A DNA stretch of 62,008 nt. Source: Deltaproteobacteria bacterium. Lineage in GTDB: Archaea > Thermoplasmatota > Poseidoniia > Poseidoniales > Poseidoniaceae. Numbering within the stretch: the first letter of the stretch is position 1; each line of letters starts with the position of its first letter. The notes beneath the pieces were generated by a model. That model saw only the letters and a list, made by a program, of their open reading frames with translations. It was not told the DNA's origin and searched no databases. The stretch is taken from the NCBI GenBank assembly GCA_028344335.1, contig JAOMAZ010000004.1, positions 1 through 62,008 on the forward strand, in the 5' to 3' direction. A program made the position numbers and the translations under genes. Shown one piece after another: positions 2,652 to 26,310 of the stretch.

Positions 2652-5480
2652 TCAAGATTCATCCCAAACTCGATATCCGTCATCAGTTGAATACCAATGC
2701 GTTCCATCATTACCAAGATACCAATGAATACCTTGTTCATCGGTTTCAAGCCATTCACCATCTGGCAGTTCTTCCCAAGAACCTACGTGCTTTGGGTTTG
2801 CATGAGCCGCTACTGTAGGAACGAAGTTATCTGTCGTGAATGTTTGTGTAGTCTGTATCGTTTGCTGGTATATTTCATTATCCTCTTCAAACAAATCGTC
2901 CGAATCCGAATCTCTCTTTCTTCTAACGATTAATAATCCAACTAAAATAACTAAGATAAACAGCCCAACTGAGCCACCAATTATGATTACCTGGCTTGAG
3001 GCTGAGCCTGCAGCAGCAGCTTCTTTTTCTTCTTCAGTTGGGCAACCAAATCCATCACCGCCATATTCATTTGGGCATTCATCATCGCGATCCATTAACT
3101 CATCGCCATCAGAATCGTAATATATGTCGCATTCGCCAAAATCATATTCCATGTATACATAATCACTACTATTGTGCAAACTATTGTTCATTGGTGTGGA
3201 GTTTGAATCTAATGGATCGGAACGACATAAGGAATCCTCGGGAAAAGAGGTCTCCAATTGATCGGAAAAACCATCATTATCATCATCTTCATCTTCATTT
3301 ACTGATATGAGGTAATCCGGGAGTTGGATATTGTCAATTGTGTTTCCTTCACCTATAATCCTGCCATAAAATTTCAACTCATGACTACCTGCTGAAACGT
3401 TGATTGAAAGGTGTTCCAATGATGAAAAGCCTTCTGGGTTACAGCCATAATCAATAGCGTTTCCATCGAGATATATTGGGATGCATTGTTTATCGATTAA
3501 GAACGATGTAATATAGACGTCTAAAGTAACTACGCTGTCATTCCAAGAGGAGAAACCTATTGAAAAGTATCCTGTATCACTAGCCCACATTTTCTGACAT
3601 ATACTGTATTCGCCGTCAATAGGATTGTCTCCACAAATTACCCAAGGTGCGTAGTCTGGCATGCAAAAGCCAGCAAGGTCTTCGGCACAATGAACCCCCA
3701 CGCCATCATAGTCTCCACTTTCAAAATCAATTAACCTGCCACTTGTTATGCCTTCAACATAGTCTGCTAAACCATCTCCATCAGTATCAGTGTCTCTTAA
3801 GTGGTCAAACTCCCAAGCATCGTTTTCATTCATAACTCCATCATTATCGTGATCAGGGTCACTATTATCTCCGATTCCATCTCCATCTGTATCAAATGCT
3901 TCCGAGGAATCATCGGGGAATAGGTCGACATCATTACTAACTCCATCTCCATCATTGTCGATTAAATCATCACAACCATCTGGAACTTGATCTGAATCTA
4001 CATCGATTGCATCATCATAGCCTTCACACAGGTCTAAGAGATCGGCAATTCCATCCCCATCGGTATCATCCATACAGCCATCAGAATTATTATCAAACCC
4101 AGTAGAATCTTCATTAGGACACTTGTCTATAAGTTGTCCAAGACCGTCTCCATCATAATCTGGATAAGTTATCTGAGTATGTCTGATTTCAGTACTATTG
4201 TTAAAGTGTGAAATGTGAAGGTTACCGTCAGACCCAATCACCATCGATGAATCTCTGTGCGATTCTCCTATTGATTCAATTGTTACTAATTCCCAGGAGT
4301 TATTTCCGGAAGAAAATGCGTACTTGAGATCATTATTATGTTCATCATAATATGAGATGTGAATGTTGTTTTTTATATCTAAAATTATCGAGGGATGTAT
4401 ACCTGTGCCACTTTGCGAGTCAACAGTAGATAAGTTCCATATTGACCCATTCATTGAATATGCATACTTGAGATTGATGCTATTGTGGGAATAAGAATCC
4501 GAATAAGAAATATGAATGCCGCTGTCAGAATCAATTGCTATTGAGGGATAGGCGCCAGCATATGTATCAGTATCAATATGGCTATTATTCTCCCAAGTCT
4601 TGAATAACTTGTCTTGCGAAGCATACCATAACCCCTCATCATAACGGGTGTATTGGTTGTGGTATGCAACATGTATTGTATCATTGGAATCAATGGCAAT
4701 AGCGGTATCGAACACCCCTGCATGATCTTCATCTTGATCATTATCTCCGTGGCAGTCCATGATAACGTCGGTATTCCAATATCCAAAATTCTCAAAATTT
4801 AGATTCGTAGCATAATTCAAACTGTAAGAATACTCATAGTAAACTTGGCTGTAACTTTGGTCGGTGTATGAAATATGTACTTTATCATCGGAATCAACCG
4901 CAATAGAATTACTATATCCTGAGTTTTCAGCACCCACTGAAGTCACAACCCATGATGATACGAAATAGGCATGTCCGCTTGAGTTCGTGGTGTATTTCAG
5001 GTTTTGATCAAATTGATCAAAATAAGAAACATGCAAATTGTTATTCGAGTCGATTGCCATATCAAAATCACCAACTGGTCTTGATTCTGTGTTAACATAA
5101 GTCGTTTTCCATGAGCCCCCTATGTATGCGTCATTCCAGATGATATTTCCTTCGTCGAGGTAGGCAAAATAATTTGTTGCGTAGAGGAGCGCGGAAGACC
5201 CGTTTTCACGGAAGATAATATGTGTATAACCATTAGAATCGTGTGCAATTGCATTTTCAGTAGGAAATTCAGGATTCCCCCAGTACTTAACACCCGGATT
5301 TACACCAGTTGCATTAATTTGTTCTATGGTTTCAGACTCAATTGTATAATTTACTGGCCCATCCGAAGAGAAAAAGGTTTCACTAGAATTAAATTCGTAC
5401 CCATCATCATTTTGCATAAATGGTGTGAGCATTGATGACAATAAAATAATGACCATTATTGCCAGTACTTTATGGTGCAT
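2652..5480 (-). CDS. large single-pass surface protein with calcium (TSP3) repeats and a WW-like cytoplasmic tail
   Basis: This 942-residue exported protein begins with a signal peptide (MHHKVLAIMVIILLSSMLTP). Residues about 60-440 hold propeller-like repeats of the form IAIDSNxxxHVAYxD...LKYA. Residues about 445-600 hold thrombospondin type 3 repeats (DTDGDGIADLLD and similar), which bind calcium in other families. A jelly-roll-like segment (600-720) and more acidic repeats follow. A single membrane span (about 828-852) ends in RRKR. The 87-residue tail ends in an aromatic stretch (SWEELPDGEWLETDEQG, then HWY and GYRVW) that recalls a WW domain, which is only an inference. The gene is divergent from the related gene at 5662. 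Its TATA element lies 27 bases upstream of the ATG, predicting a leaderless mRNA. Confidence 0.9.
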   Translation of the reverse strand: MHHKVLAIMVIILLSSMLTPFMQNDDGYEFNSSETFFSSDGPVNYTIESETIEQINATGVNPGVKYWGNPEFPTENAIAHDSNGYTHIIFRENGSSALLYATNYFAYLDEGNIIWNDAYIGGSWKTTYVNTESRPVGDFDMAIDSNNNLHVSYFDQFDQNLKYTTNSSGHAYFVSSWVVTSVGAENSGYSNSIAVDSDDKVHISYTDQSYSQVYYEYSYSLNYATNLNFENFGYWNTDVIMDCHGDNDQDEDHAGVFDTAIAIDSNDTIHVAYHNQYTRYDEGLWYASQDKLFKTWENNSHIDTDTYAGAYPSIAIDSDSGIHISYSDSYSHNSINLKYAYSMNGSIWNLSTVDSQSGTGIHPSIILDIKNNIHISYYDEHNNDLKYAFSSGNNSWELVTIESIGESHRDSSMVIGSDGNLHISHFNNSTEIRHTQITYPDYDGDGLGQLIDKCPNEDSTGFDNNSDGCMDDTDGDGIADLLDLCEGYDDAIDVDSDQVPDGCDDLIDNDGDGVSNDVDLFPDDSSEAFDTDGDGIGDNSDPDHDNDGVMNENDAWEFDHLRDTDTDGDGLADYVEGITSGRLIDFESGDYDGVGVHCAEDLAGFCMPDYAPWVICGDNPIDGEYSICQKMWASDTGYFSIGFSSWNDSVVTLDVYITSFLIDKQCIPIYLDGNAIDYGCNPEGFSSLEHLSINVSAGSHELKFYGRIIGEGNTIDNIQLPDYLISVNEDEDDDNDGFSDQLETSFPEDSLCRSDPLDSNSTPMNNSLHNSSDYVYMEYDFGECDIYYDSDGDELMDRDDECPNEYGGDGFGCPTEEEKEAAAAGSASSQVIIIGGSVGLFILVILVGLLIVRRKRDSDSDDLFEEDNEIYQQTIQTTQTFTTDNFVPTVAAHANPKHVGSWEELPDGEWLETDEQGIHWYLGNDGTHWYSTDDGYRVWDES

Positions 5481-9758: not shown

Positions 9759-11282
9759 TTAACTTGAACATGACAGCATGGAACAACCTACTTGATGACG
9801 GGCCCACTCGGGGCGTTTCTGAAACCATTCTTCCTCATGTTCGGGCTGTTCATCGTAAGGGTTTTGAAGAAGGATGTAAAGTCGTTCAGCGACTGAAAAG
9901 TCGCCCGCTTCTGCAGCATTAATCGCTAGTTGTGCCATCCAATTTCTCAGCACATACTTCGGATTTGATTTGCGCATTATGGAACGATTCGGCGAACCTT
10001 CAGTACGTGACCACCAACGTTGTAGCCAAGCATTCCATTCATCGGTTGGAACGGTTGAAGAATCATAAAAAGCATCTCTAAGCGAATCTATATGAGGCGA
10101 TTCAATGGAACACAATAACCGAAAGAAAATGGTCATGTCTGTCTCAACTTCTTGCAGTAACGAGTTCAAGTCTTGGATTAGAGGCTCATCCAATGCGGTG
10201 AATACGTCCAATCCTAACTTGGTGGCCCACATGTTATTGTGATGTTCGTCTAATGCACTGATGTACGCATCAAGCACTTGATGCAAACTCTCGGGTTCAT
10301 CCATCAATGGAACCATCGCTTCAAGAAACCTAGCTACATTCCACCCTCCAATTTGCGGTTGTTGGCCGTATCTATAACGGCGAGTCGAAGCATCAGTTGT
10401 GTTTGGAGTCCACCCCGGATTGTAATCTTCCAACCACCCGTACGGTCCGTAGTCAATGGTTAAACCGTGTATGGACATGTTGTCAGTGTTCATCACTCCG
10501 TGAACAAAACCAACTCTCATCCAATGCGTAATCATCGATGCGGTTTGTTCTGCGATGTGGGTAAGCCATGCCACACGAGCTACGTCATCATGGACTGAGT
10601 GGTTGGGGAAATGGTGCTCAATGGTGTGGTCAACCAAGGTTCGTAACGTAGACACATCACCTGATGCGGAATGTATCTGAAAACTTCCAAAGCGTAGAAA
10701 ACTTGGAGCGACACGGCAAACAACCGCTCCTTGTTCTGGTGCTGGATTCCCATCATATAGCACATCACGAAGTACCGGTTCTCCGGTTGTCACCAACGAC
10801 AATGCACGGGTAGTAGGTACTCCCAAATGGTGCATTGCTTCACTGCAAAGGAATTCTCGAATCGAAGAACGAAGCACTGCTTTTCCATCTGCAAAGCGTG
10901 AGTAAGGTGTATGTCCTGCACCTTTGAGTTGCAATTCTAATACTTCACCTTCCAATTGAACCTCTCCCAAAGTGATAGCCCGCCCATCACCAAGTTGATG
11001 CGCCCAATTTCCGAACTGATGGCCCCCATAACGCTGAGCGTATGGGTCCATACCTTCGACAATGGAACCTCCTCCCAATATGCTGCCGTCAGGTCGGTCG
11101 AGCCCCAGTTGCGCTGCCATCTCGTTCGACCACATCACCAGTTGAGGTGTAGGTGCTGGAGTCGGATTAACGCGCGACCAGCATGCTTTCGGAACTTGGC
11201 GCGGGCGCCCCCCAACTTCCTCATCGCCCGGCGTCTCGTCAAGGAAACGACTGAGCCACTGAAGAGATGCAAAGGTGCCCAT
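9759..11282 (-). CDS. selO: SelO/YdiU family protein adenylyltransferase (pseudokinase fold)
   Basis: This is a full-length SelO-like protein of 507 residues from the ATG at 11282. SelO transfers AMP from ATP to protein Ser/Thr/Tyr and is linked to redox homeostasis in bacteria and mitochondria. Family motifs are present in order: YGGHQFGNWAHQLGDGRA, QLKGAGHTPYSRFADGKA with the nucleotide-binding lysine, LRSSIREFLCSEAMHHLGVP, HGVMNTDNMSIHGLTIDYGP with the catalytic Asp residues, and a C-terminal LSCSS whose cysteine occupies the selenocysteine position of eukaryotic SelO. A TTG at 11348 would overlap the upstream phosphatase gene by four bases and add 22 residues; I prefer the ATG because the added residues do not resemble the family. 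SelO is unusual in archaea, so bacterial transfer is likely. Confidence 0.93.
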   Translation of the reverse strand: MGTFASLQWLSRFLDETPGDEEVGGRPRQVPKACWSRVNPTPAPTPQLVMWSNEMAAQLGLDRPDGSILGGGSIVEGMDPYAQRYGGHQFGNWAHQLGDGRAITLGEVQLEGEVLELQLKGAGHTPYSRFADGKAVLRSSIREFLCSEAMHHLGVPTTRALSLVTTGEPVLRDVLYDGNPAPEQGAVVCRVAPSFLRFGSFQIHSASGDVSTLRTLVDHTIEHHFPNHSVHDDVARVAWLTHIAEQTASMITHWMRVGFVHGVMNTDNMSIHGLTIDYGPYGWLEDYNPGWTPNTTDASTRRYRYGQQPQIGGWNVARFLEAMVPLMDEPESLHQVLDAYISALDEHHNNMWATKLGLDVFTALDEPLIQDLNSLLQEVETDMTIFFRLLCSIESPHIDSLRDAFYDSSTVPTDEWNAWLQRWWSRTEGSPNRSIMRKSNPKYVLRNWMAQLAINAAEAGDFSVAERLYILLQNPYDEQPEHEEEWFQKRPEWARHQVGCSMLSCSS

Positions 11283-11344
11283 GCCGTGAGCACCAGCATC
11301 CCTAACTTGAAGATGTGGTAGATTTGAAAGATTGAAATTACAAC

Positions 11345-12712
11345 TCAAGCGCTGAAATAATTAGAACGGGATTCTCTGAACATCACGGCCATCACCATGG
11401 CTATCAAAGTCAACAGAACTGATGGTGCAGGCATACTATCACCTTCCTTTTGTGGAATAGGATCGCCTTGTCTCAAAGTGAATGTGTCCCCTATCTCTCC
11501 ACTTTGTCTGACATAATCTACCTGCAATGATTCACCTGCAATATCAACACTCACCCTAACTATTCCATATGACTGTTCGCGATATGCTGACCACACCGGC
11601 TGCTCATCAGAATAATCGTACTCCCCTCTACCGGCAGTACCGACAATAAGGTGGATTGGAGCGTGCGCACCCGAGAAAACCTTGCCATCATCAGCGTCGC
11701 CACGCTGCTGGACCTCTGCATCGATGACCGGCCAGGTTCGTTCGTAGAAATGGTCATGCCCCCAAAAAACCAAATCAACTCCAGACTCGACGAAAAGTGC
11801 TTCCAAATCGGCACGCAATTCTGCATCTTCATCGTGCGTGGCATCATCGTGTGAAGTGTACATCGGCTTGTGCCCATAGACTATAATCCAAGGTACCTGC
11901 TCTCGATTCTGGATTGCATCGCCAAGGTCAGACTCCAGCCACTGATACTGTTCACTGCCGGCACTGTAATCATGCTCTGTCGAGAAACCAGTGAAATGAA
12001 CAGGACCGTAATCAAAGGAATGCCAGTAATCGGAATCTGAGGTCGAAGGAAACTCAAAACGTATATCGTAGGCCTCGAATCCATATCCCGGCTCGTTCTC
12101 ATGGTTACCGGGGACCATCATCCACGGCATGTTACTCATCGACCTCTGATTAGAATCCAGATAATCATCCCAAACAGACTGTTCACCATTAGCATAGGAG
12201 ATATCGCCAGAAAGTATGAGGAAGTCCGCATCGCTATCAACCACCATGTTGGTGGTCTCCATACCCTCTGAACTAAGACCGTGATCCCCGAAAGCAAGGA
12301 AGGTAAAATCTGACAAAACATCTCTGGTCTGGAAAGTGTAGACCTCTGACCAGGCACTTCCATCACCAACCCTGTAACTATAGTTGCTTGCGACTTCAAG
12401 ACCTATCATGACACCACTGTGGAATACCATGTCGTGGTCATAACAGAACTCTTCCCCCATGGCGCTGTTGTCAAGAGAGCCATCTAATCCCCATTCAACC
12501 TCGGAATCTGTCTGAGATTCTGTAGCCCATATTACCTGCATCTGACTTTCATCCTGGCTCAGTGAAATATGAATCTGCTCAGGAGAGTTACTTCCAGTCA
12601 GAGTACTAATCGGACAACTGAGAAGACTTCCAATCTGTGCATCCGCTACGAGAGTGAATGCCGGTATGCAAAGCAGGGCTGTGATTACCAGCAGAGCCAA
12701 GCGCCTGAGCAT
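11345..12712 (-). CDS. secreted purple-acid-phosphatase-like metallophosphoesterase
   Basis: The exported enzyme of about 455 residues begins with a signal peptide (MLRRLALLVITALLCIPAF), then a fibronectin-III-like domain typical of purple acid phosphatases (about 35-130), then a calcineurin-like metallophosphoesterase domain. Metal-binding motifs appear in order: GDHG, GDISYANG, GNHE, YGHKP and GHDHFYERT. It probably hydrolyses phosphate esters outside the cell, as in phosphorus scavenging. The C-terminus is MPAPSVLLTLIAMVMAVMF followed by basic residues, a Pro motif plus hydrophobic helix plus basic end that resembles archaeal sorting or anchoring signals. The ATG at 12712 is preferred over a GTG at 12733 because it begins the signal peptide cleanly and lies about 30 bases after a TATA box. 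The gene is followed closely by selO. Confidence 0.9.
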   Translation of the reverse strand: MLRRLALLVITALLCIPAFTLVADAQIGSLLSCPISTLTGSNSPEQIHISLSQDESQMQVIWATESQTDSEVEWGLDGSLDNSAMGEEFCYDHDMVFHSGVMIGLEVASNYSYRVGDGSAWSEVYTFQTRDVLSDFTFLAFGDHGLSSEGMETTNMVVDSDADFLILSGDISYANGEQSVWDDYLDSNQRSMSNMPWMMVPGNHENEPGYGFEAYDIRFEFPSTSDSDYWHSFDYGPVHFTGFSTEHDYSAGSEQYQWLESDLGDAIQNREQVPWIIVYGHKPMYTSHDDATHDEDAELRADLEALFVESGVDLVFWGHDHFYERTWPVIDAEVQQRGDADDGKVFSGAHAPIHLIVGTAGRGEYDYSDEQPVWSAYREQSYGIVRVSVDIAGESLQVDYVRQSGEIGDTFTLRQGDPIPQKEGDSMPAPSVLLTLIAMVMAVMFRESRSNYFSA

Positions 12713-12737
12713 AGACCCTCGAGGGCTTGTCACGCTA

Positions 12738-12776: not shown

Positions 12777-14069
12777 TCAATCTTCGCCTGCCTCGAACAT
12801 CGAGATAATCCTCTCAAGTTCTCTAGAAGTCTCCTCAAGCAAGTTTCGCTCTGTTTTATCCAACTCGATATCCTTGAGACGATCCTTGATTTCTTCAAGT
12901 TCCTTTCGTGCAGATTCACGCTCTTCTCTGAGTTTCTTGTCTTCCTTAATCATCTGCATTCTCGCTAGACGCACACTAGCATCCTTCTTGCGAACATTGG
13001 TCGTGGACTTGTGTTCCTGCCCGATATTAAATCGAGTTGGGAATGGAATCCCAATTCCTTCTTCCCTGAAACGTTCATCGATGGATTTCAGCACCCAATC
13101 CTTGGCAACCCACTCATCACTGTAATCCTTGACCCATCCATACATCCTGAAAACCTTGGCGAAATCACCCAATTCGTTCAACAAGACTCTTGGATTTGGT
13201 TCGTCAATGACATATGGGCACTCGCGCATTAACTGCAGCAAGGTGTACTTAACGTGATCAATATCTTCTCCATATTCAACTCCAATATCTAGGACCAAAG
13301 AAATTCTGCGAGCAACTCCATCTCCGCCACCTCGGGCATGATTGACGACGATGGAATTAACCAGCGTGTTGTTTGGAATAACCACTAAAGTCTCCTCATA
13401 AGTCAGAATCTTAGTCGAAAGAATCCCAACTGAGGCAACAGACCCAGTCAAATTTTCAACCTCAATTCTATCTCCAACCTCAAATGGCTGGTCAAGAGAG
13501 AGCATGAATGAATTGACAATATTTCCAAGAGTCTGCTGCATAGCAAGACCGATGATTATAGAAAATACAGCCAATGAAGCAAATAGACCAAAGAGTTCGA
13601 TCCCCATCTCTGACAGTGCCAGATAGATTCCACCGAACCATACAATCCCCCTAAACATGAAAATTATCAGATAGTTACTACCTGAAACTGTTACACTTGA
13701 CTTGTTCCTGAATCGTTCTGAAATTGCAGGAACAATATGTCGAATAGAAACACTGGTAAGTGAAGTGGTCAAGATAATATAAAATACTGAAAAGAAGGGA
13801 GATAAACTAGCCACCCATTCTCCATCCTCAGGATATATCCAATTCAAGGAAAAGTGAATACCTCCAACAAAAATGAATGAGTACAAACGATTGGAGATTG
13901 GAGCGTGTAATTCATCATCCCATTCAGCGCTTGTCATCTTCACTACCTTGAGCCAAGGTTTGACAATTGTAAATCTGGATAGTAGGATGGCCATGAGGAT
14001 ACCTATCCCTGAAACAAGTAACTTGACAGAAGAATCCAAAGAATTTATCTGATCAATTATTCCTAACAT
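12777..14069 (-). CDS. MscS-family mechanosensitive ion channel
   Basis: The 430-residue protein has an N-terminal membrane region with about five helices and a classic MscS pore-lining and beta-domain signature: IIIGLAMQQTLGNIVNSFML, then LDQPFEVGDRIEVENLTGSV and VVIPNNTLVNSIVVNHA. A C-terminal alpha/beta domain follows, then a long charged coiled coil (about 345-425). It should open under membrane tension and release solutes. A ribosome-binding site AGGTGAT sits five bases before the ATG. Only 19 bases separate it from the stop of the giant RCC1 surface protein upstream, so the two are probably cotranscribed. The coiled-coil tail is longer than in bacterial MscS and may mediate cytoplasmic contacts. 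It is paralogous to the partial gene at 1-449. Confidence 0.94.
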   Translation of the reverse strand: MLGIIDQINSLDSSVKLLVSGIGILMAILLSRFTIVKPWLKVVKMTSAEWDDELHAPISNRLYSFIFVGGIHFSLNWIYPEDGEWVASLSPFFSVFYIILTTSLTSVSIRHIVPAISERFRNKSSVTVSGSNYLIIFMFRGIVWFGGIYLALSEMGIELFGLFASLAVFSIIIGLAMQQTLGNIVNSFMLSLDQPFEVGDRIEVENLTGSVASVGILSTKILTYEETLVVIPNNTLVNSIVVNHARGGGDGVARRISLVLDIGVEYGEDIDHVKYTLLQLMRECPYVIDEPNPRVLLNELGDFAKVFRMYGWVKDYSDEWVAKDWVLKSIDERFREEGIGIPFPTRFNIGQEHKSTTNVRKKDASVRLARMQMIKEDKKLREERESARKELEEIKDRLKDIELDKTERNLLEETSRELERIISMFEAGED

Positions 14070-14088: not shown

Positions 14089-17000
14089 TCAATCTTCTTT
14101 CAGGAAATCCTTAGCCTGTTCGACCCACTTATCTCTCTTAACTCTTCCAGAGAAGAACTCGATTGCAACATTCACTTGGTCTTCTATCTCAGGAGTCATG
14201 CCTGAAATCTGCTTGAAGGTGAAAATACCTAATGCATTCAATTTCTCTTCAAGGAATGGTCCTATTCCCTTTGTTCGTTGCAAATCATCCTTTTCTGCAG
14301 CAGTTGCTGTTCCGATAGTGTTGAAATCGATGAATTCAGACTTGGCTGCGACACGTGCTAATTCTGCCTCCTTCTTAGAAAGTCCTTCCATCTTGTCTTC
14401 TAGAGCGGCCATCTTCTCTGCAATCATCAACTCCATGTTTGCAAGTTTAGTGGCTGCCTCACTCTCTGCATTTTGACGAACTTCGTCTTCAACTGCCTTG
14501 ATACGCCTTTCTTCTTCCACTTTGGCTTCGACCTTCTTGGCTTTAGCTTCTGCTTCTGCCTTAGACTTCTCAATTGAAGTATCCTTTTTCCTTGAGATTT
14601 TACGTTTCTTTTTTCCGCCAGAAGAATCCTTGATAGAAACTGTCCATTGGAAGTATACCGTCGAACTGCCTACTCGCATTAGAGTGCTGTACTCATCGCC
14701 ATCATTGGAATCGGAGAGATCCTTAAATTCCAGTTTAAATGATATTGAGCCAGTGTCCATTTCATCATCATCATTGATCCAATCGTCGTCTTCTTCGACC
14801 AAAATATCTGTCATATCGAAACGCCCCTCATTCTCTTCAGTATACAGATCCATGAATCTGACAATAGTGTCAGGCGGTAGGTGGCTAATGGTAATGGATT
14901 CTCTACTAGATGCTGATTTACCAGGAGATAGACCTTCAATATCCTGAAGAAGGTAAGGGTCTATCTTGGTTCCAGAACCAGAAATAAAATCAGGAGATGA
15001 AAACGTGTGTTCAGGTTGCGGGCCTTTTTGCATCCCCATCATAACTAGCACTGAGTCACCACGCTCCCTCGCGAATAGAATCAATGGAACAAGAAGTAAC
15101 AACAGTAACAGGAAAATTACACATAGCCACCAATACTTTGTCACCAAAGATGTACTTTCAACTACTTCTTCACTCTTCTTGGTCGCATTACAAGATTCCA
15201 TGTTATCTGGAGTACTGGTTGCATTCAGAGGGTCAGTTCCACAAGCGATTTCATCGACATCCAACCATAGGTCACCATCATCGTCATCATCAGCATTATC
15301 GCCAATACCATCGGCATCAAAATCATAGGTCTCGTTGGCATCTTCCTCGAAAGCATCCATATCATTTGATACTCCGTCATTGTCGATATCATCATCGAAC
15401 AAGTCACATATCATATCAGAATCGAAATCATCAGGAACACTGGAGTTGGACTTGGAATCTGTCTCACAGAGCCCTTCCCACATATCCGTCCAAGAATCGT
15501 TGTCATCATCAGTGTCAGCATTATCTCCAATACCATCACCATCAGTATCGAGCCATTCAATTTCATCTTCTGGGAAATCATCTTGATGGTTGGCATATCC
15601 ATCACCATCCTTGTCATCATCCAGAGAGTCACAAATGAAATCATTGTCAATGTCTGTTGGAATACTGGAGTTATCAGTTGAATTGGTGCCACAAGAGGAT
15701 TCTATTCCATCAAGCCACCCATCACCATCGGTATCGGTCTCCAATCCATCGCAAACTCCGTTACCGTCGGCGTCGACTGGAACTTCATTTGCATCCTTCC
15801 AATCCGAACCACATTGTTGCTCCTCAGTATCGATGAAACCATCTCCATCATCATCGTCATCAACGTAGTCACATATCTGGTCATCATCAGTATCTACTGG
15901 CGTATCAGTTCCATTCAATGGATCCTTGCCACATAACAACTCAATTTGATCAGACCACCCATCAGCATCGTCATCACTATCATCTCGGTCAGGTAGACCA
16001 TCGAGGTCGGTATCCAACAGAACTGCAAGGTTCAGGGTGAATGTGGAACTGTATTTGTCATTACTCGCGGTGATAGTGTATGATTGAATAGAACTCAATT
16101 CTGTTGGGGTTCCGAATATTGAACCATTATCTCCACCATCCCTCGCAGGGCTGGTGCCACTGAATGTCAATCCAAGAGGCAGATATGGGTCGATAGACCA
16201 AGAAGTTACATCTCCTCCAACTGCGGTTGCATCAAACATCATCATCTCTAGATTGAGTGATATTTCAAGCGTTGAACTCTCATAAAATAACAGAACCGGT
16301 GCATCGTTGATATCATCATTTACATCACAAATTCCATCACCATCGCTATCGAATGGATGGTCATTTGCATCGGTGGAATTGGTTCCTCCACATGCAAGCT
16401 CATCTTCATCGCTCCAACCATCACCATCATCGTCATCATCTGACTCATCTGGTGAACCATCGCCATCAAGATCCAGCAATACTGTGATACTGATTGTAGT
16501 TGACGCACTAATTTCGGGTTCGATTCCTTGAGCAGATACTGAGTAGACTGTTTCCGAACTCAATTCGCTTGGAGTTCCCCAAATACTGCCATTTCCTTCT
16601 CCAAACTCCATTCCTACAGGAAGGTCTGGAGTGATTTCCCAAGTGATGGCTGCTGCTCCTCTCTGTGAGGGATAGATTGTATTGATAGGTGAATTGACTG
16701 CTATTCTATGTTCAGCATATGGATAGAAGATATACATCCCAGTTCCATTGACCTGAATAACAACGGTTGTGTCCACACTGCCGCCAGAATTATTTGCGAA
16801 TATCTTGTAAGTCGTGTTATCCTGATTGGCTACTGGGATTCCTGAAATGACTCCATATGCATCCAACAGCATTCCCACAGGCAAGACAGGGTCAATCTCC
16901 CAAGTCTCAACCATACCACCGGAATTGGATGGCTCAAGCGGAGTCATCGGCTCTTCTTTCTTCAGAGATATGTGGGCCTGAGTATAGGATATCACAGCAA

Positions 17001-20000
17001 CTGGTTCATTGATTGTCAGAGTCAATGTATGTTCATCGCAGACTCCCCAATTATTGCATGCCTTGATGGTGAAATCAGTAGAGGACAGATTCACATTTGG
17101 TGTGCCTGAAATATCCCCCGTTGCAGAATCAATCGACAATCCCGAGGGGAGAGCAGGGGCTGTTGTGAAATACGACAAGTATTGGTCATCAAGACCCGCT
17201 GTTGGAGAAATCGCTACCATTAGTGTTCCACGTTCAAGAACAGGAGACAGGTCTCCCGCGTCGTACGTCACATCAGGTGCTGGGTCAGCAACTGGGAATG
17301 TTACTTGGAAGGAGTGGGAGTTTCTCAATTCCGAGTTTCCATGATTCAATGTCACATTAATGGTGTATGTGACATTGGAAGAATTGGCTGAAGGTGTACC
17401 ATAGATTCTACCAGTGCTTGACTGGAACGTCAATCCAGTGGGCAGAGTTGGTGAAATCGTCCAACTTGTTGCATAATCCAAAACTGGATTGTTCATAGGA
17501 TAGAGGTCATTGTATTGACCTGCAATAGGAAAATCAATTTCTACTTCGTGGGCCTCCAAAATCTCTGGACTGAAGGTCCTGAAGATATATGCGTAGCTGC
17601 TGGGCATTACTTGGGTATTGGAAGTCATGTATTCCGTGGTTGTAGTATATCCGCCCCAATATTGACCGTTTGATTCCAAGACATAGAATGGAGCGCCATA
17701 GGAGTCCAACCCGAAATCATACAGGTAACAGGCGGAAGAGCCACCAGATGTCGCAGTTTGATATACGATATTCCCATCAATGTCAAATGCTATTGCCCTG
17801 AAATATTGGGCATTCGTAGAATCTTCTGTATCCATCATTAGATGTACCACATCATCACTATCTGATACTGAAAACATTCTGCTATCGCTACCATAATCTC
17901 GAATACCGAAATCATCCTCGAAATAAGTCCACAACTTGTTTCCAGAATTATCAAGGGCAACAGCAGCAAACCAAGCATCTCCAACCGGTTCAATCGATTC
18001 GTCTCCCATCAGATTCAAAGTACCGATGGAATTGTCTGGATATCCATCGCTGAATGCAACAAGCATACTACCATCACTGAAACTACTGATTGTTGGGGTA
18101 GCATACAAGTGAGATTCTGAAGCAGTAACATTCTGCACCCAAACCCACGAACCTCCTGCATCAAGATGTGCCACAACCGATTGATAGCCATTGTTGGCAT
18201 CATTCCGGGACAACTCCTGATTACCAAAGAGCATAGCATACCGACCTCTAAAAGTCAATGTTGCAGAACCATCAGGATGTGAAGTAACCTCAACATCATA
18301 ATCGTATATATTCTCGTTGGATGTATCATTTGAACGGGAACTTGCAACCCATGCACCAGTTCCATCAGGGTTCAACCGAGCGACATAAGGAAGAGAATAA
18401 CTAGAGGTTTCGAGGTCAGTGAAATCAACCCCTGCAAAATCAATAGTTTTTGTTGCAGTGGTATTCTTGACTGTTCCGCCAATTGTGACATTGCCATTGG
18501 AAGAATCAATTTCAATATTCGACGACAGAACATGTCCTCCGCTATTTGCGGCAGTTGCATTGGAATTGCTGACCCACTGAGGGGAACCTAATGAATCGTA
18601 CTTTATCACTACAGAATCGTAATAATTGTTCGAGGTGAAATCGAAAGAATCACTATTCCTGAAATCAAAAGTACATGATGGAGAATAACCCCATGCAAGG
18701 TAGTGTGCCAACAAGAATACTGAACCTGTATCAGAGACTTGGAGATCTTGAGCGTAGATGTCACACGTATCGAACACCTCAACCCATTCCCAATCTCCAG
18801 AAGTTCCGTTCCTCTTTGCAAGATATGCATCATTATTCCTTTGCATTGAAGGTGTGGACAATGGAGAGAATGTTTCAGCACCAGTTGCGACACCAAATAC
18901 ATACATCGAACCGTCTGGAGCAAATGCAATCTTGTTGCTTCTAATTGCATTAGTACCGTAGGAATAGGAGGAAGTTGTCCAAGGTCCATATTCATATCCA
19001 GTCAGCAAAGGTATCCCTTCTTGGACTCTTAGTGTGAATACCTTCTGCCAATTATCACCAGATGAAGTAGTAGAGATTGTGTATGTCGTTCCAGCGACAT
19101 CAGCTTGATCGAATGTTCCACTAATCACTCCTGTGGAAGAATCCATCTGTACTCCAGCGGGTAGTGCAGGATTGATAGAGACCGAATCTGGCCAGAGACC
19201 TGAGTATATCGGCACTACTGAATTGGAACTACCGTTCTCCCAAACCAAATTTGAATAATTCAATGATGCCGTATCAAGAGCATCGCAGGTTCCATCACCA
19301 TCTGCATCTGGAGGAGTAACACTCGCATCCTTTGAAGGGTCATCGAAATAGCCCTTGTAATGGATATATGCACCTACAGCACTAACACTGTTTGATGAAA
19401 AAATGAACACATCACCCTGTTCATCAAATGTCATGGAGAGCCCATACGCATAACTTGCGGACCAACTGGTCTCCTCTCTGACCAACTCAGTCCTCATTGA
19501 TGAGCCATCCATGTATGTATGATACAAGGAAGCATTTGTGAAATCGTTCCAGATGATATGTGGATTATCATCACCATCAAACTTCATCTCCATCCCTTTG
19601 TTATTGGTATCTGGAATTGAACTGCTCCATACCGGATTCCATGAGCTAGTCCGTGAAAACATTCGAATGAATCCGGCATCGAGGAATGTGAAATAAGGCA
19701 CATTTGTGGAATTGACCCTAAGTTGAGCCTCTTTGTAATACACATCATTGCTGCCAGACCAGATAGTCTCTCCGGAACTCCATGAGCCGGAATCATATTT
19801 CCAATAGGTGTAACTGCCAGTTTCCAGAGCCACCAGATGGATGGCACCAGTATCATCGATTGCAATCTGCGTGTATTGAACTGAAACTCCAGTAGGATAA
19901 TTCAGTGTTCCAGCCTGATCTGTAATCGTATCATAATAATCTAATTCATAAGAATCTGTGGCATAGTATGTCCCGTTGGGAGAAAATGCAACATCTGTTG

Positions 20001-23000
20001 GTTGCTGGTACCAACTGCCAGTTTCCAACTGTTGTTGAGACCATTGTGTATTCAATTGTGCATCCATCTCATACGTATCTCTGCTCAATGTCAGATAATC
20101 TAATCCCCCATGATTGGTTACTTGTGGATACCTGTAATTTGCACCAGGTCCAACGTTTTGACTGCTTCCATAGGTCCCCCCATATCTCATAGTTTCACCG
20201 ACAGAATCAGGAACTGCGTTCTGATAGGTCCATACTCTGGCATATCCATTTGATGCACCATCAGAGGCGATGACTCTTAGCCCATATTCATCATCGAACC
20301 AGATGGCGCTACCATAATCAGGTCTCATGTAATAGTTTCCTGATGTGCTAGACATGGCATTGAATGAAGAGTATCCATACATGGGTTCACACTGCCCCTC
20401 GACGATATCCGAAAACGTGTCATTATCATCATCAGTATCCAAGTAATCACAAGTCAAATCCGAATCAAAATCGCTGGGTGTATCTGTATCGAGCAATGGA
20501 TTGGTGGCGCATGCAACCTCATCAGTATCATTCCAGTTGTCGTCATCATCGTCAAGGTCTTCGATGAGAGTTGTCGAACAAGAGTTCACGATATCGTTTG
20601 GCATCCCATCGCCATCAGTATCAGTATCTGCACATTCATCCAATGGGAAATCATCATCAGCATCGATTGAACCATCATCATCATCATCAGTATCCCAGAG
20701 ATCTATCGTTCCATCAGAATCTGTATCTTCTGCCCTAAGCCAAAGTTCTGTAGCCGGTAAGTCATCTCCCATCTCTCCAGTCTGGTCTCCTCTTTGAGTA
20801 GTGTCTTCATGTCCAAGGTTTCCAAGTCCATTGTAGCCCCAACACCTAACCTGCCCATCTTCACGAATCGCGCAAGATGAATAGGCCCCCAATGCCACGG
20901 ATTCAACATAGTCTCCAATATCAGCCACCATCAGATTGTCTCCCATCTCATTGACTCCATCACCGATTTGCGCAGTACTTCCAATACCCAATTGCCCATG
21001 AGATCCACTGCCCCAGCAACGCAACAGTTCATCATCACCAATAGCACATGTGTGGATGTAAGTACCCTGATTTTGATACCAATACGAAGAAGTATGACCT
21101 GTCGAAGATGTTTGAACATCCAAAGCGGCCCTATCCGTCCCAATGTCGACATTGCTTGTTCCAGGATTTGAAACACTGGAACTACTACCATATCCCAATC
21201 GGCCATATGAACCATAGCCCCAACAAGCAATGTTTCCACTATCTAGTAGAGCACAACTGTAAGCCTGACCCGCCGAAATCTTGACCGGAGTTCTACCATC
21301 TGCCAAGTTCAAGAAGGACATCTTGTTATCAGAAACTGCTGTGTTGTCACCCATATCGGTGGTATTTCCCAGTCCAAGTTGATATTGAGAATTATCTCCC
21401 CAACACTTGGCTGCCCCATTCTCAAGAATTGCACAACTATGTCCAACACTGGCAGAGACATCTACTGCCTTGTAATCACCCAACAAGACTGTAGTGGGGG
21501 CTAGATTAGTACCCGTAGAACCGTCACCTTGAATTCCTTGATCTCCATAACCCCAACACTTGACCTCTCCAGTGTCAAGCAAAGCGCAGGTGTGGTATTG
21601 CCCTGCTGCAACCTTCACTGCATTACCGCCAAGGTTAACTGCTGGCATCAGATCTCCTAATTCAGCAGTAGAATCACCGATTTGAGTGGTGTTTCCGAGT
21701 CCCAATTGATATTCGGAATTTCTTCCCCAACACTTCACTGAAGCATCATTCAATACTGCACATGCGTGGAAATTTCCTGCACTGATTTGAACTGCAGATT
21801 TATTGGCGCCAAAATTAACGTACGCGAGGTTCTCTCCCATTTCATTCGCCTGATCACCAATCCGATTGTTGGGAGAAGAGGTACTTCCGATACCTAACTG
21901 ACCATTTGAATTATCACCCCAACATTTGACAAGACCTTGGTTTGAACGTGCACAGTAGAAGCTTGTTCCGGCTCCAATCTCAACAGGCCTGCTCAACAAT
22001 CGTGAAACTGATGAAGATGAATCGGGAGTTAAGATATCAGTTCCACTTGATTCAACCGCTGAATCAGCAGCAGGTGCGCTAAGGTCGGTTGTGGAACCAT
22101 ATCCCATACGGCCATCTCCACCTTCTCCCCAACACATGATCTTACGAGAATCATCAGAGGTCTTGAACAGGGCACAGGAAGTTGTACTGGACTCGGAAAC
22201 CGCCACCTCCAGTGGAGTATATCCTGCAGGAACCGAAACTACAACAGGTGTAGACGCCATGGAAGATGCTGTTCCTCCATCTCCTAATTCTCCAGATACC
22301 TCGGTACCCCAGCATTCAATTGCCGAGGCCACGACTATGCAGGCGTGTTCATTGCCTACTGAAACCGAGTAGTGCTTGTCTCCTGAAGAACCAGCATCCA
22401 CTCTTGTCCCCTTGATGGAAGAAGTGGAATTACCCAGAATCTTGTCATCATATCCTTGACCCCAACATGCAGTTTCCAGACTTGATGATAGAATCGCACA
22501 AGTTGCATCAGCACCAGCACTTATTCCAGAAAAGGTCCTTCCGTCCCAATCACTCGAGTAATGGCTACCTGTTGCAGAAAGGTCAACTTTCACAGGAGCG
22601 CTGCTATTTGTGGAAGTGGTGGAGGCATTTCCTAGAACCATCTCGGATGAGCCGCCATTGTACCCCCAGCAATATACATCTCCGATGGTATTCAGTGCAC
22701 AGGAATGTCTGTCTCCAGTTGCTACATCTTCAATCACTCCTACTGAGGCAGGAAGGATAACTTCTGAAGGGCTTGCCGAAGTTCCACCTGAAATCAATTC
22801 TGTACTCGAATTAATGCGAATGTCGTCAAGATAAACCTTGTTTTGTCCGCCGGCTGAAGAAGACCTGACCGAGCTCCACTTGAAAGTATGTGAGCCTGCA
22901 TCCAAATCGAAAGATACTGATTGGAATGTAGAAGCCGCTATACCGGACCATGAATTCTGCAATACATCATCGATATAGAATCTGAGATAATGGTTGGTTG

Positions 23001-26000
23001 CCGTGCTGGTCTTGTAATCAAAAGTGATGTTTCCAGCAGCAGTAGGCATGGATAACTCAAAATCGCTCTGTTGATTTGTGAGGAGTGAAACTGAGATGGA
23101 ATTGGAACCTGTTGAAGAAGAGCCGCTATCTATCGACCAAGGAAGAGTGGCATCGTTCACCCATTCAAGCGTGTTGAAGTCTCCACTCTCGAATCCATCT
23201 TCCTGATAATATCCTGGATTGGAAGTATAATAATTTCCAGTTTGTGAATCACCACCTTCTCCCCAGCAATATACTGAACCTGATGAGGTCGCCACACAGG
23301 TATGATCTGAGCCAGCAGATACGGATAATGCAACAACTCCAGAAGGCAAGGATGCAACACTTGGTGCTCCAGAGGCTGAGGTTGTGCCGATACCCAACTG
23401 GCCCTTGTCATTGGCTCCCCAGCATACAACACTTCCATCTGTTCCCACTGCACAAGCATGTGAAGAACCTGCATCGATATCTGATGCTTCAAAGCCATTT
23501 GGAAGGTCGACCGTCACCGCTTCATTGGATGAGACTCCCGCTGCAGAATTACCCAATTGCTCTGCATCGTTCTTACCCCAGCATGAGACACTGCGGTCAT
23601 CGAGAATTGCACAACCAAAATCATCACCAGTGGTTATGACATTTGATTCACCCACTGAGGGAAGGTCGTTCTTGGTATCGAACCTGTCGCAGATTCCATC
23701 CTCATCAAAATCAGCAGGTGTACTTGTTGAGTCCAATGCATCGGTCTGGCATCTGACCTCATCAAGGCCTGTCCAACCATCACCATCCGCATCTTGCTGT
23801 AGACCTGAGCCTGCATAATCAATGTCGTTCAAGACCCATAGGTCTTCACTTGGAGAATGGAGAGATGCCCATACACGACCAGTTTGGCCAATCAACAATG
23901 AAACCCACTGTGGTGCTCCAGGCGCATTCGCCACGGTCTGCGTCTCCCAAGTACCTGCATTTCTGTTTGAAACAGCTAAGTCAACAGATGTCCCTTGAGC
24001 CAATATCCAAGGTTCACCTTTTGGACTGATGGCAATATCAAGTTCACCACCAATCAACCCAGTCGTTGCCTCAGTTGACCAACTGGATAATGTATCGCAA
24101 CTATTCTCGCACCATGCATATAGTGGGATGCTGGTGACATTGGTGTAAGCGATGTGTAATGATGAATCATAACCGATAGCGATAGCCACAGATGCATTAC
24201 TACTTGAGGCTGAAGCTGAACCATCGATAGTTGTAGAGGCATAAGTCCCACCAGAGCTCCTTGATACATGCAACAAGTCATCAGCGGAACCTGCTTCTTT
24301 GATCATTGCGAAATGCAACGTATCACTTGAATCAATAACTGAATCTAAATTTTCAACTGCAGCTCCAACACTATGTGTGTCCGCAGCCGACCATGAAGAG
24401 GAAGTGGAACAGGAACTTGAACATGAAATGGTCTTCAAATCATTCGAGTCAATATATGCTATTAGGACATCACCAGATGAGTCAATCTCAATTTCCACCT
24501 GTGTAGCAGTCGCAGTCAGAGCAACCGATTCCCAGAAACCATTCGCCTTGGTGGTGTAGGTCAACTGATCTGCCCCACTGGACAATGAATGCACTATATG
24601 TGGGGTGTAGGAATCATCGATAATAAAATCGATATCATCAATTGCAGTAATCCCACCAGATAAGGGAGATTCAGTACCCCACAACCCATTGGAGAATGCA
24701 GAGAATCGTATCATGTTGTTGTCATCATCAACATAGGCAATTGCCGGACAACCATTAGGTAAGAGTGCGAAACCATTCTTGTCACCGACATCACTTGATG
24801 AACTGTCTAAGCGTGTATCCATAGAAGAATGGTGTGCCTGCTCAAAAGAATCCGCGCAGGAATCGGATGCAGGTGTCTCATCTAGTTCCAGATCCACCTC
24901 AGTGTAATGTGGAAGGTCTGATGCTCCATCGCCTCTGTTCTCAGTATCGCCGTATCCAAGTTGGCCAAGAGAATTCTCCCCCCAGCATCGAACATCATCA
25001 TCATTCATGATGACACAAGTTGAACCTGAGCCAACCTCGATTCTATCTACATCGTAAGAAGTAACGCTACTGGATGAGGAACCTAGATTGACGTACGGCA
25101 GATTATCCCCCATTCCATTTGAAGAACCTGATGAAGTGCCTCTGCTGACTTGATTACCATACCCCAATCTGCCATTCGTTCCAGAGCCCCAGCATTTCAC
25201 GTAATCATTGTCAAGAATTGCACATACGTGCTCCATTCCAGCATCAATCTCGACCGCTGACCTTGAAGTTCCTAGGTCTGTCTCGACCAGATTGTTTCCC
25301 ATCTCACTTGAGCCATCTCCAATGGTATTTGTGTTCTCAATTCCGAGTTGACCGTAATCGTTGATTCCCCAACAGTAAGTCTCCGTGGGTGTTGTGTCAA
25401 GTATGGCACAAGTGAATCCATCACCAGCAGTGATGTTCAATGCAGTATTTCCTCCTGGCAGAGAAACGAATGCCAGGTTGTCGCCCATCTCACTGCCACC
25501 ATCTCCAATATCATCCATGCTACCGATTCCGAGTTGGCCATTCGCATTACCTCCCCAACAGGATATGCTTCCATCATCCCAAATAGCGCAAGTGTGGTCA
25601 TATCCCAACGCAAGTTGGGACACCGTTCGTGAAGTTGGCAGGGAGACTGCAGCAAAATTATCTCCCACTTCATTACTCGCATCTCCTCGGTCATCAGTAT
25701 CTCCTAAGCCGAGTTGCCCCATGTTATTTCTGCCCCAACAAATCAAACTGTTATCGCTGAGCACTGCGCAAGTATGTCTGGAACCAGTCTCAATCATGGT
25801 TGCAGTGGTTGCGCTCGGCAATTCAATGAATGCAAGCACGTCGCCAGTCTCCAGATATCCATCGCCATAGCCATCAGAACTAGTAGACAGTCCCAATCCA
25901 AGTAGCGGTGCATTCCCCCAGCATTTGATGGAACCATTACTGAAAAGAGCACAGGAATGGGAATCACCAAGAGCGAGCGTGGTTGTAGTCAATCCAGTAC

Positions 26001-26310
26001 CAAGACTAACGAAAGGTAGACCTTCGCCTTGCTCAGAAATATCATCACCGACATTCTGTGTATTTCCAAGTCCTAATTGCCCAGAACTACCATTACCCCA
26101 GCATTTCATGTTTCCAGAGACTCCAACAGCACATGCGTGGGCGCCACCTACATTCAACAACTCGGCATTTCCAGTATCCACATCCATGGGTGTAACTACA
26201 TCATCAAGTTCCTCAACAACCAACGGATTATCAATATATGAAACTTGAGACATCAGGACCATCAATAGGCACAAGAAAATACTTTTTGACTGACTGCGCA
26301 TCCTACCCAT
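14089..26310 (-). CDS. giant (4073-residue) RCC1-propeller surface protein with cytoplasmic coiled coil and helix-hairpin-helix domain
   Basis: The order of parts is: signal peptide (MRSQSKSIFLCLLMVLMSQ); seven RCC1 repeats (about 45-470); propeller-like repeats (475-830); calcium repeats; 14 more RCC1 repeats (890-1860) with a carbohydrate-binding-like insert at about 1035-1175; more calcium and propeller repeats to about 2915; a series of putative-Ig modules (LPxGLxxxxxTGxIxGTP, about 2917-3425); thrombospondin type 3 repeats (3427-3695); one membrane span (about 3724-3746); and a cytoplasmic part of about 325 residues. The last has a beta domain, an alanine/glutamate-rich coiled coil (3910-3990) and a final helix-hairpin-helix (DDLQRTKGIGPFLEEKLNAL). 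The RCC1 blades carry CWG plus a partner cysteine, suggesting disulphides outside the cell. It is likely an adhesin or sensor. A leaderless promoter lies upstream and an MscS gene follows. Confidence 0.93.
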   Translation of the reverse strand: MGRMRSQSKSIFLCLLMVLMSQVSYIDNPLVVEELDDVVTPMDVDTGNAELLNVGGAHACAVGVSGNMKCWGNGSSGQLGLGNTQNVGDDISEQGEGLPFVSLGTGLTTTTLALGDSHSCALFSNGSIKCWGNAPLLGLGLSTSSDGYGDGYLETGDVLAFIELPSATTATMIETGSRHTCAVLSDNSLICWGRNNMGQLGLGDTDDRGDASNEVGDNFAAVSLPTSRTVSQLALGYDHTCAIWDDGSISCWGGNANGQLGIGSMDDIGDGGSEMGDNLAFVSLPGGNTALNITAGDGFTCAILDTTPTETYCWGINDYGQLGIENTNTIGDGSSEMGNNLVETDLGTSRSAVEIDAGMEHVCAILDNDYVKCWGSGTNGRLGYGNQVSRGTSSGSSNGMGDNLPYVNLGSSSSSVTSYDVDRIEVGSGSTCVIMNDDDVRCWGENSLGQLGYGDTENRGDGASDLPHYTEVDLELDETPASDSCADSFEQAHHSSMDTRLDSSSSDVGDKNGFALLPNGCPAIAYVDDDNNMIRFSAFSNGLWGTESPLSGGITAIDDIDFIIDDSYTPHIVHSLSSGADQLTYTTKANGFWESVALTATATQVEIEIDSSGDVLIAYIDSNDLKTISCSSSCSTSSSWSAADTHSVGAAVENLDSVIDSSDTLHFAMIKEAGSADDLLHVSRSSGGTYASTTIDGSASASSSNASVAIAIGYDSSLHIAYTNVTSIPLYAWCENSCDTLSSWSTEATTGLIGGELDIAISPKGEPWILAQGTSVDLAVSNRNAGTWETQTVANAPGAPQWVSLLIGQTGRVWASLHSPSEDLWVLNDIDYAGSGLQQDADGDGWTGLDEVRCQTDALDSTSTPADFDEDGICDRFDTKNDLPSVGESNVITTGDDFGCAILDDRSVSCWGKNDAEQLGNSAAGVSSNEAVTVDLPNGFEASDIDAGSSHACAVGTDGSVVCWGANDKGQLGIGTTSASGAPSVASLPSGVVALSVSAGSDHTCVATSSGSVYCWGEGGDSQTGNYYTSNPGYYQEDGFESGDFNTLEWVNDATLPWSIDSGSSSTGSNSISVSLLTNQQSDFELSMPTAAGNITFDYKTSTATNHYLRFYIDDVLQNSWSGIAASTFQSVSFDLDAGSHTFKWSSVRSSSAGGQNKVYLDDIRINSSTELISGGTSASPSEVILPASVGVIEDVATGDRHSCALNTIGDVYCWGYNGGSSEMVLGNASTTSTNSSAPVKVDLSATGSHYSSDWDGRTFSGISAGADATCAILSSSLETACWGQGYDDKILGNSTSSIKGTRVDAGSSGDKHYSVSVGNEHACIVVASAIECWGTEVSGELGDGGTASSMASTPVVVSVPAGYTPLEVAVSESSTTSCALFKTSDDSRKIMCWGEGGDGRMGYGSTTDLSAPAADSAVESSGTDILTPDSSSSVSRLLSRPVEIGAGTSFYCARSNQGLVKCWGDNSNGQLGIGSTSSPNNRIGDQANEMGENLAYVNFGANKSAVQISAGNFHACAVLNDASVKCWGRNSEYQLGLGNTTQIGDSTAELGDLMPAVNLGGNAVKVAAGQYHTCALLDTGEVKCWGYGDQGIQGDGSTGTNLAPTTVLLGDYKAVDVSASVGHSCAILENGAAKCWGDNSQYQLGLGNTTDMGDNTAVSDNKMSFLNLADGRTPVKISAGQAYSCALLDSGNIACWGYGSYGRLGYGSSSSVSNPGTSNVDIGTDRAALDVQTSSTGHTSSYWYQNQGTYIHTCAIGDDELLRCWGSGSHGQLGIGSTAQIGDGVNEMGDNLMVADIGDYVESVALGAYSSCAIREDGQVRCWGYNGLGNLGHEDTTQRGDQTGEMGDDLPATELWLRAEDTDSDGTIDLWDTDDDDDGSIDADDDFPLDECADTDTDGDGMPNDIVNSCSTTLIEDLDDDDDNWNDTDEVACATNPLLDTDTPSDFDSDLTCDYLDTDDDNDTFSDIVEGQCEPMYGYSSFNAMSSTSGNYYMRPDYGSAIWFDDEYGLRVIASDGASNGYARVWTYQNAVPDSVGETMRYGGTYGSSQNVGPGANYRYPQVTNHGGLDYLTLSRDTYEMDAQLNTQWSQQQLETGSWYQQPTDVAFSPNGTYYATDSYELDYYDTITDQAGTLNYPTGVSVQYTQIAIDDTGAIHLVALETGSYTYWKYDSGSWSSGETIWSGSNDVYYKEAQLRVNSTNVPYFTFLDAGFIRMFSRTSSWNPVWSSSIPDTNNKGMEMKFDGDDNPHIIWNDFTNASLYHTYMDGSSMRTELVREETSWSASYAYGLSMTFDEQGDVFIFSSNSVSAVGAYIHYKGYFDDPSKDASVTPPDADGDGTCDALDTASLNYSNLVWENGSSNSVVPIYSGLWPDSVSINPALPAGVQMDSSTGVISGTFDQADVAGTTYTISTTSSGDNWQKVFTLRVQEGIPLLTGYEYGPWTTSSYSYGTNAIRSNKIAFAPDGSMYVFGVATGAETFSPLSTPSMQRNNDAYLAKRNGTSGDWEWVEVFDTCDIYAQDLQVSDTGSVFLLAHYLAWGYSPSCTFDFRNSDSFDFTSNNYYDSVVIKYDSLGSPQWVSNSNATAANSGGHVLSSNIEIDSSNGNVTIGGTVKNTTATKTIDFAGVDFTDLETSSYSLPYVARLNPDGTGAWVASSRSNDTSNENIYDYDVEVTSHPDGSATLTFRGRYAMLFGNQELSRNDANNGYQSVVAHLDAGGSWVWVQNVTASESHLYATPTISSFSDGSMLVAFSDGYPDNSIGTLNLMGDESIEPVGDAWFAAVALDNSGNKLWTYFEDDFGIRDYGSDSRMFSVSDSDDVVHLMMDTEDSTNAQYFRAIAFDIDGNIVYQTATSGGSSACYLYDFGLDSYGAPFYVLESNGQYWGGYTTTTEYMTSNTQVMPSSYAYIFRTFSPEILEAHEVEIDFPIAGQYNDLYPMNNPVLDYATSWTISPTLPTGLTFQSSTGRIYGTPSANSSNVTYTINVTLNHGNSELRNSHSFQVTFPVADPAPDVTYDAGDLSPVLERGTLMVAISPTAGLDDQYLSYFTTAPALPSGLSIDSATGDISGTPNVNLSSTDFTIKACNNWGVCDEHTLTLTINEPVAVISYTQAHISLKKEEPMTPLEPSNSGGMVETWEIDPVLPVGMLLDAYGVISGIPVANQDNTTYKIFANNSGGSVDTTVVIQVNGTGMYIFYPYAEHRIAVNSPINTIYPSQRGAAAITWEITPDLPVGMEFGEGNGSIWGTPSELSSETVYSVSAQGIEPEISASTTISITVLLDLDGDGSPDESDDDDDGDGWSDEDELACGGTNSTDANDHPFDSDGDGICDVNDDINDAPVLLFYESSTLEISLNLEMMMFDATAVGGDVTSWSIDPYLPLGLTFSGTSPARDGGDNGSIFGTPTELSSIQSYTITASNDKYSSTFTLNLAVLLDTDLDGLPDRDDSDDDADGWSDQIELLCGKDPLNGTDTPVDTDDDQICDYVDDDDDGDGFIDTEEQQCGSDWKDANEVPVDADGNGVCDGLETDTDGDGWLDGIESSCGTNSTDNSSIPTDIDNDFICDSLDDDKDGDGYANHQDDFPEDEIEWLDTDGDGIGDNADTDDDNDSWTDMWEGLCETDSKSNSSVPDDFDSDMICDLFDDDIDNDGVSNDMDAFEEDANETYDFDADGIGDNADDDDDGDLWLDVDEIACGTDPLNATSTPDNMESCNATKKSEEVVESTSLVTKYWWLCVIFLLLLLLLVPLILFARERGDSVLVMMGMQKGPQPEHTFSSPDFISGSGTKIDPYLLQDIEGLSPGKSASSRESITISHLPPDTIVRFMDLYTEENEGRFDMTDILVEEDDDWINDDDEMDTGSISFKLEFKDLSDSNDGDEYSTLMRVGSSTVYFQWTVSIKDSSGGKKKRKISRKKDTSIEKSKAEAEAKAKKVEAKVEEERRIKAVEDEVRQNAESEAATKLANMELMIAEKMAALEDKMEGLSKKEAELARVAAKSEFIDFNTIGTATAAEKDDLQRTKGIGPFLEEKLNALGIFTFKQISGMTPEIEDQVNVAIEFFSGRVKRDKWVEQAKDFLKED

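Follow-up and report, generated by a model that had tools for sequence, protein, structure and literature searches.

A predicted membrane-anchored giant of Poseidoniales carries 21 paired-cysteine RCC1 blades, probably arranged as three seven-bladed propellers

Introduction

In the plant receptors CR4/ACR4, every repeat of an extracellular seven-bladed RCC1-like propeller carries the motif C(X~10)CWG, and each blade has one probable disulphide; the repeat and its probable disulphides have been described for the CRINKLY4 ectodomain (PMC4617170). CR4 joins a single propeller of this kind to a TNFR-like domain and a kinase. RCC1 and the RCC1-like domains of UVR8 and HERC share the seven-bladed fold, but these proteins are intracellular and the aligned UVR8 blades lack the cysteine pair. 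Bacterial proteins of the RCC1_2 type (L013 and L017-L025, from Bdellovibrionales, Deltaproteobacteria, Gemmatimonadetes, Gordonia, Myxococcales and others) have paired-cysteine CWG blades, most of which are grouped by about seven. The PLL lectins of Photorhabdus are also seven-bladed.

Here we describe a giant protein of Poseidoniales that shares the CR4 type of repeat but appears to hold three such propellers, together with other propellers and Ig domains, and has no kinase. The bacterial proteins are far shorter and usually have one or two propellers, and the giant, in contrast to RCC1 and its relatives, gives no hint of a function with Ran or chromatin. The RCC1 fold and the CRINKLY4 motif are known; what is new is their serial use in an archaeon, the strictly conserved number of 21 blades, the nested inserts and an MscS neighbour. 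Our literature search, which left most subscription journals outside, found nothing on RCC1 from Marine Group II archaea.

Results

Layout of the giant ORF

The window, a stretch of 62,008 nucleotides, comes from a MAG of 1.32 Mb that is 57% complete. Among the nearest named relatives of the giant, which share 76-90% identity with it over the second block of RCC1 blades, one comes from a Candidatus Poseidoniaceae MAG (L009) and others from further euryarchaeal MAGs. These relatives suggest that the MAG of the window belongs to a Marine Group II archaeon. Features are listed from the N-terminus of the giant to the gene downstream of it, with the evidence in brackets.

14089..26310 (-): giant ORF of 4,073 aa with an ATG start (intact homologues in independent MAGs)
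26233..26310 (-): likely signal peptide, a hydrophobic N-terminus, residues 1-26 (hydropathy)
24943..26172 (-): RCC1 propeller 1, seven blades, residues 47-456; cysteine pairs 60/70, 120/130, 181/191, 241/251, 301/313, 363/373 and 432/442 (CWG count, cysteine pairs, predicted model, blade profile)
23827..24777 (-): PLL-lectin-like seven-bladed propeller of non-RCC1 type, residues 512-828 (model strands, Foldseek, internal repeat)
23656..23805 (-): thrombospondin-3-like Asp-rich segment with cysteine pair 854/874 (sequence)
22087..23646 (-): RCC1 propeller 2, seven blades, residues 889-1408; cysteine pairs 900/910, 953/963, 1005/1015, 1204/1214, 1271/1282, 1324/1333 and 1379/1393 (CWG count, cysteine pairs, model; ring fit weak)
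22771..23214 (-): insert resembling a jelly roll, residues about 1033-1180, which separates blades 3 and 4 of propeller 2 (model, ~8 strands)
20797..21999 (-): RCC1 propeller 3, seven blades, residues 1438-1838; cysteine pairs 1453/1463, 1517/1527, 1575/1585, 1626/1636, 1686/1696, 1755/1765 and 1813/1823 (CWG count, cysteine pairs, model; ring fit weak)
20371..20763 (-): segment rich in Asp, its cysteines 1934/1954/1974 spaced as C-x19-C (sequence)
19321..20358 (-): residues 1985-2330, a second repeat domain of PLL-like type and probable seven-bladed propeller (hhalign; blade count by reading)
17611..19023 (-): further repeat domain, probably a propeller, residues 2430-2900, period ~62, ~7 repeats (hhalign self-comparison)
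16501..17613 (-): He_PIG Ig-like domains in a row over residues 2900-3270, with one more at ~2350-2430 (Pfam)
15181..16503 (-): calcium-type repeats rich in Asp, residues 3270-3710, with C-x19/20-C pairs (sequence)
15067..15135 (-): one transmembrane helix, residues about 3726-3748 (hydropathy peak 3.35)
14092..15063 (-): predicted cytosolic tail with an acidic domain, a coiled coil and a C-terminal helix-hairpin-helix-like domain (NCBIfam, below cut-off)
12777..14069 (-): MscS mechanosensitive channel gene, ~20 bp downstream of the giant (Pfam, 66.6 and 50.5 bits)

Judged by hydropathy, the giant would have an extracytoplasmic ectodomain, a single membrane pass and a cytosolic tail. Pfam matches above the family cut-offs were obtained for WD40_RLD (PF25390, 501 bits), RCC1_2 (PF13540, 374 bits) and RCC1 (PF00415, 219 bits), and He_PIG scored 110 bits over six stretches. 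No Pfam match to TSP_3 was present in the giant, although Asp-rich C-x19/20-C repeats occur. The tail matches NCBIfam tail models below cut-off, for example that of the NADH-quinone oxidoreductase subunit E tail (72.5 bits); the helix-hairpin-helix-like end of this surface protein's tail is of a type usual in ribosomal-protein and NuoE tails.

A second RCC1 protein is encoded in the same genome (L066, G000:C43) and has seven CWG blades beside integrin-like DGDGDLD repeats.

Number and pairing of the RCC1 blades

Direct count on the translated ORF gave seven CWG motifs in the first block (residues 70, 130, 191, 251, 313, 373 and 442) and fourteen in the second (910, 963, 1015, 1214, 1282, 1333, 1393, 1463, 1527, 1585, 1636, 1696, 1765 and 1823). 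The total of 21, split 7 + 14, is the one that an earlier note on this DNA had proposed. The second block is discontinuous, with a step of 199 residues between blades 10 and 11 at the site of the jelly-roll insert.

Each of the 21 blades has a partner cysteine upstream of CWG. The separation is exactly 10 in 17 blades and 9, 11, 12 or 14 in the others, so that the range of 10-14 given in the earlier note becomes 9-14. The RCC1 stretches (1,416 residues) contain 42 cysteines, all of them paired and none spare. With cysteines placed at random, the tail probability of 17 of 21 pairs at exactly -10 is ~1e-27, which rules out a chance origin of the pairing.

Conservation of blades and cysteine pairs

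The query matched somewhere in 130 of 145 related genomes, about 25 of the matches being good orthologue candidates. All 21 blades align in the long relatives that cover the region, which come from genera g1, g5 and g10 of one family and g12, g14 and g21 of another. Both cysteines are kept at 443 of 449 scorable blade positions (one further position was masked). The six mismatches all concern blade 19 of genus g10, where a lengthened hairpin displaces the upstream cysteine; loss of the cysteine from this blade was rejected, the residue being displaced but still present. The Trp of CWG is replaced by M, F, A, R or T at 19 of 450 positions while both cysteines stay, so the cysteine pair is the more constrained feature. 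That hairpin length can vary with both cysteines retained matches the expectation for a cross-strand disulphide.

In some relatives the CWG count appeared to drop from 21 to 19-20. This mainly reflected a degenerate Trp position of the motif, read as CMG, CAG, CRG or CFG, in blades that are still there. Two distinct Poseidoniales giants (L014 and L015, ORFs of ~3,550 aa) showed 38-39 CWG motifs, which might have broken the rule of sevens; a blade profile recovered 42 RCC1 blades in six sevens, and the exception was rejected. Comparison of blade counts among orthologues, a check suggested in the earlier note, therefore found 21 kept across two archaeal families and 42, or 6 x 7, in other giants. 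In most bacterial relatives the blades form a single block or a pair of blocks, each of six or seven, apart from a few scattered exceptions. No relatives were found in viral contigs.

Predicted structure and ring closure

We predicted the two blocks with AlphaFold2. Model 1 (residues 42-880, 9 sequences) reached a mean pLDDT of 68, with RCC1 strands mostly at 70-90. Model 2 (residues 876-1862, 7 sequences) reached a mean of 50.6, with strands reaching 70-80; some relatives were omitted from its alignment or entered as longer stretches, their fragments straddling both propellers.

Propeller 1 consists of seven three-stranded blades in model 1 and fits UVR8 in Foldseek with a target-normalised TM of 0.84-0.86. 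Since seven strand triplets go together with this fit, propeller 1 is a closed seven-bladed ring in the prediction, as the earlier note had expected. The crystallised CRINKLY ectodomains 7a0j and 7a0k match the giant by sequence, and 7a0j matches it also by fold. No Pfam match to a TNFR-like or kinase domain was found in the whole giant or in its tail, and the giant, having neither part, falls outside the CR4 family.

Model 2, at low confidence, shows fourteen three-stranded blades and an eight-stranded insert after the third. Many Foldseek alignments of this model, whose pLDDT is 50.6, straddle propellers 2 and 3 with an rmsd above 20. Some fits to single RCC1 rings gave a TM of 0.65-0.72, among them one of 408 columns at 0.72 and one of 528 columns at 0.70. 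From their lengths, we infer that fits of ~400 columns suit propeller 3 and those of ~520 columns propeller 2 with its insert. Because the confidence of model 2 is low, it bears out ring closure in propellers 2 and 3 only in part, and the two are putative rings. Low confidence and straddling alignments speak for a second block built otherwise than as 7 + 7, for instance as a single large ring, as open arcs or as 6 + 8. We consider this very improbable: the spacing of 70 residues at the border of blades 14 and 15 fits a boundary after blade 14, and blocks of seven recur elsewhere, in the six sevens of L014 and L015 and in the single seven-bladed bacterial proteins L018 and L020.

The preferred reading remains that of three seven-bladed RCC1 propellers. 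Of the earlier proposal of three complete propellers, the ring predicted for propeller 1, the conservation of the blades and the 6 x 7 giants speak in its favour; for the second block, fourteen three-stranded blades are predicted but ring fits are weak, reaching at most a TM of 0.72.

Disulphides and redox machinery

Directly opposed residues of antiparallel hairpins have their beta-carbons about 4.5-5.5 angstroms apart, a distance compatible with a disulphide. By DSSP strand register, the two cysteines lie directly opposite each other on one hairpin in 21 of 21 blades, 14 of which come from the low-confidence model. One disulphide per blade is accordingly a likely outcome of the predicted geometry, although bond formation itself is a deduction from the models. 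With both cysteines on one hairpin, the predicted bonds would lock single blades and cannot tie blades or propellers together.

VKOR (PF07884) was found in 52 of 59 relatives. In the genome of the window it lies at G000:C23:26060-26455, directly after a membrane-anchored thioredoxin-fold ORF with a CPIC site; this VKOR and thioredoxin-fold gene pair (L056:737-2103; G000:C23:25236-26602) is likely disulphide-forming. Neither VKOR nor DsbB was found in the tested genomes of the giant-carrying genera g12 and g14, and DsbB, considered as a substitute oxidase in VKOR-negative genomes, was searched for there and rejected. Giant-carrying genomes in which neither oxidase was detected would suit cysteines that bind metal or remain reduced. 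This alternative is nevertheless highly improbable in view of the directly opposed hairpin cysteines, the extracytoplasmic topology indicated by hydropathy, the presence of VKOR in most relatives and the precedent of the CR4 ectodomain (PMC4617170).

Blade disulphides thus remain the favoured reading. The idea that about 21 of them staple the ectodomain gains from the strand register, the joint retention of the pairs and the VKOR and thioredoxin-fold gene pair, but has to be narrowed to bonds that stay within hairpins.

Other propellers and nested inserts

The 'spacer' between the two RCC1 blocks (residues 512-828), whose fold the earlier note missed, has 27 strands in model 1 and an internal repeat of ~48 residues. 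Foldseek gave a TM of up to 0.75 to PLL lectins; these matches rank after RCC1 entries, and their assignment to residues 512-828 is based on strand number and length. Identity to PLL lectins is ~15%, the likeness being one of fold only. No Pfam match was found to residues 470-880. On the model, the segment is a seven-bladed PLL-lectin-like propeller.

Residues 1985-2330 align with this first PLL-like domain at an hhalign probability of 97.8% (E 1e-12). Because residues 1985-2330 and 2430-2900 each read as ~7 repeats, the ectodomain may hold six propellers. The count of exactly three is consequently true of the RCC1 type only, and three more propellers of other types are probably present.

Propeller 2 has two insertion sites. 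An insert of ~150 residues follows blade 3 in all relatives that cover this site; the jelly-roll insert of the window resembles CBM_35_2 weakly, with an E of 0.013 that is below cut-off. After blade 5, the number of extra residues is 0 in the window, ~145 in L061, ~700 in L011 and ~1,040 in L057 and L058. The large inserts are built of HISY-type repeats of ~50 residues, some 14 in L011 as against 20-21 or so in L057 and L058. By their repeat number, they probably amount to two or three complete propellers sitting inside one loop of propeller 2. The HISY inserts lie at L057:4276-7650, L058:4445-7636 and L011:2587-4800.

The MscS neighbour

An MscS gene lies directly downstream of the giant on the same strand, with gaps within ~100 bp, in all 7 genomes whose contig extends over the 3' flank (G000, G014, G025, G028, G055, G089 and G108, which belong to two families and are related, not independent). 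The window also encodes a purple acid phosphatase and a SelO protein adenylyltransferase, which come after MscS on the same strand (9759-12733, -).

Such constant adjacency, in genomes with only 2-3 MscS genes each, could mean that the giant is an outer partner of the channel, either as a stiff tether and load sensor or as a protein co-expressed with it for the safety of a single membrane under osmotic or mechanical stress. An additional MscS gene upstream of the giant in genera g10 and g12 points the same way, as does a large coiled-coil cytosolic tail that could reach partners. Adjacency in related genomes may, however, be one inherited event or reflect co-transcription alone, and in genus g11 a similar MscS gene has different neighbours, none of them a giant of this kind. 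We regard a partnership with MscS as unlikely. More speculative still is a version in which the multi-propeller ectodomain would be the extracellular arm of MscS, an attachment and load-feeling tether joined to a responding channel, with propeller 2 as a frame on which inserts dock at the loop after blade 5; to this we assign only a slim chance.

Discussion

We favour, with moderate confidence, the reading of the giant as a membrane-anchored surface protein of Poseidoniales (Marine Group II) with three disulphide-locked RCC1 propellers and a role in display or binding. An outward chain of propellers and Ig-like domains would be presented by this protein, in which the 21 RCC1 blades would fold into three separate seven-bladed propellers. 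A disulphide between the two strands of the HxCA...CWG hairpin would close each blade and may harden it against unfolding and proteases in oxygenated seawater. The stalk of Ig-like domains and Asp-rich calcium-type repeats would raise the propellers off the membrane, which a single helix would cross before the cytosolic tail. Propeller loops, the jelly roll and the PLL-lectin-like propellers would thereby be displayed, most likely binding glycans or proteins on particles or on other cells.

A role in binding or adhesion is suggested by the architecture and by published work on Poseidoniales, in which genes for adhesion and thrombospondin are reported to be of importance and to occur widely (PMC6461757).

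RCC1 blades in these giants come in whole-propeller quanta, 21 or 42. Disulphide propellers of the CRINKLY type, familiar chiefly from receptors of plants, would here be used serially in archaea. The conserved MscS neighbour offers a testable link between the surface giant and membrane tension. Poseidoniales are abundant uncultured archaea of the ocean whose contact with particles or cells is poorly known, and the giant gives them a defined, conserved surface protein whose modules can be counted.
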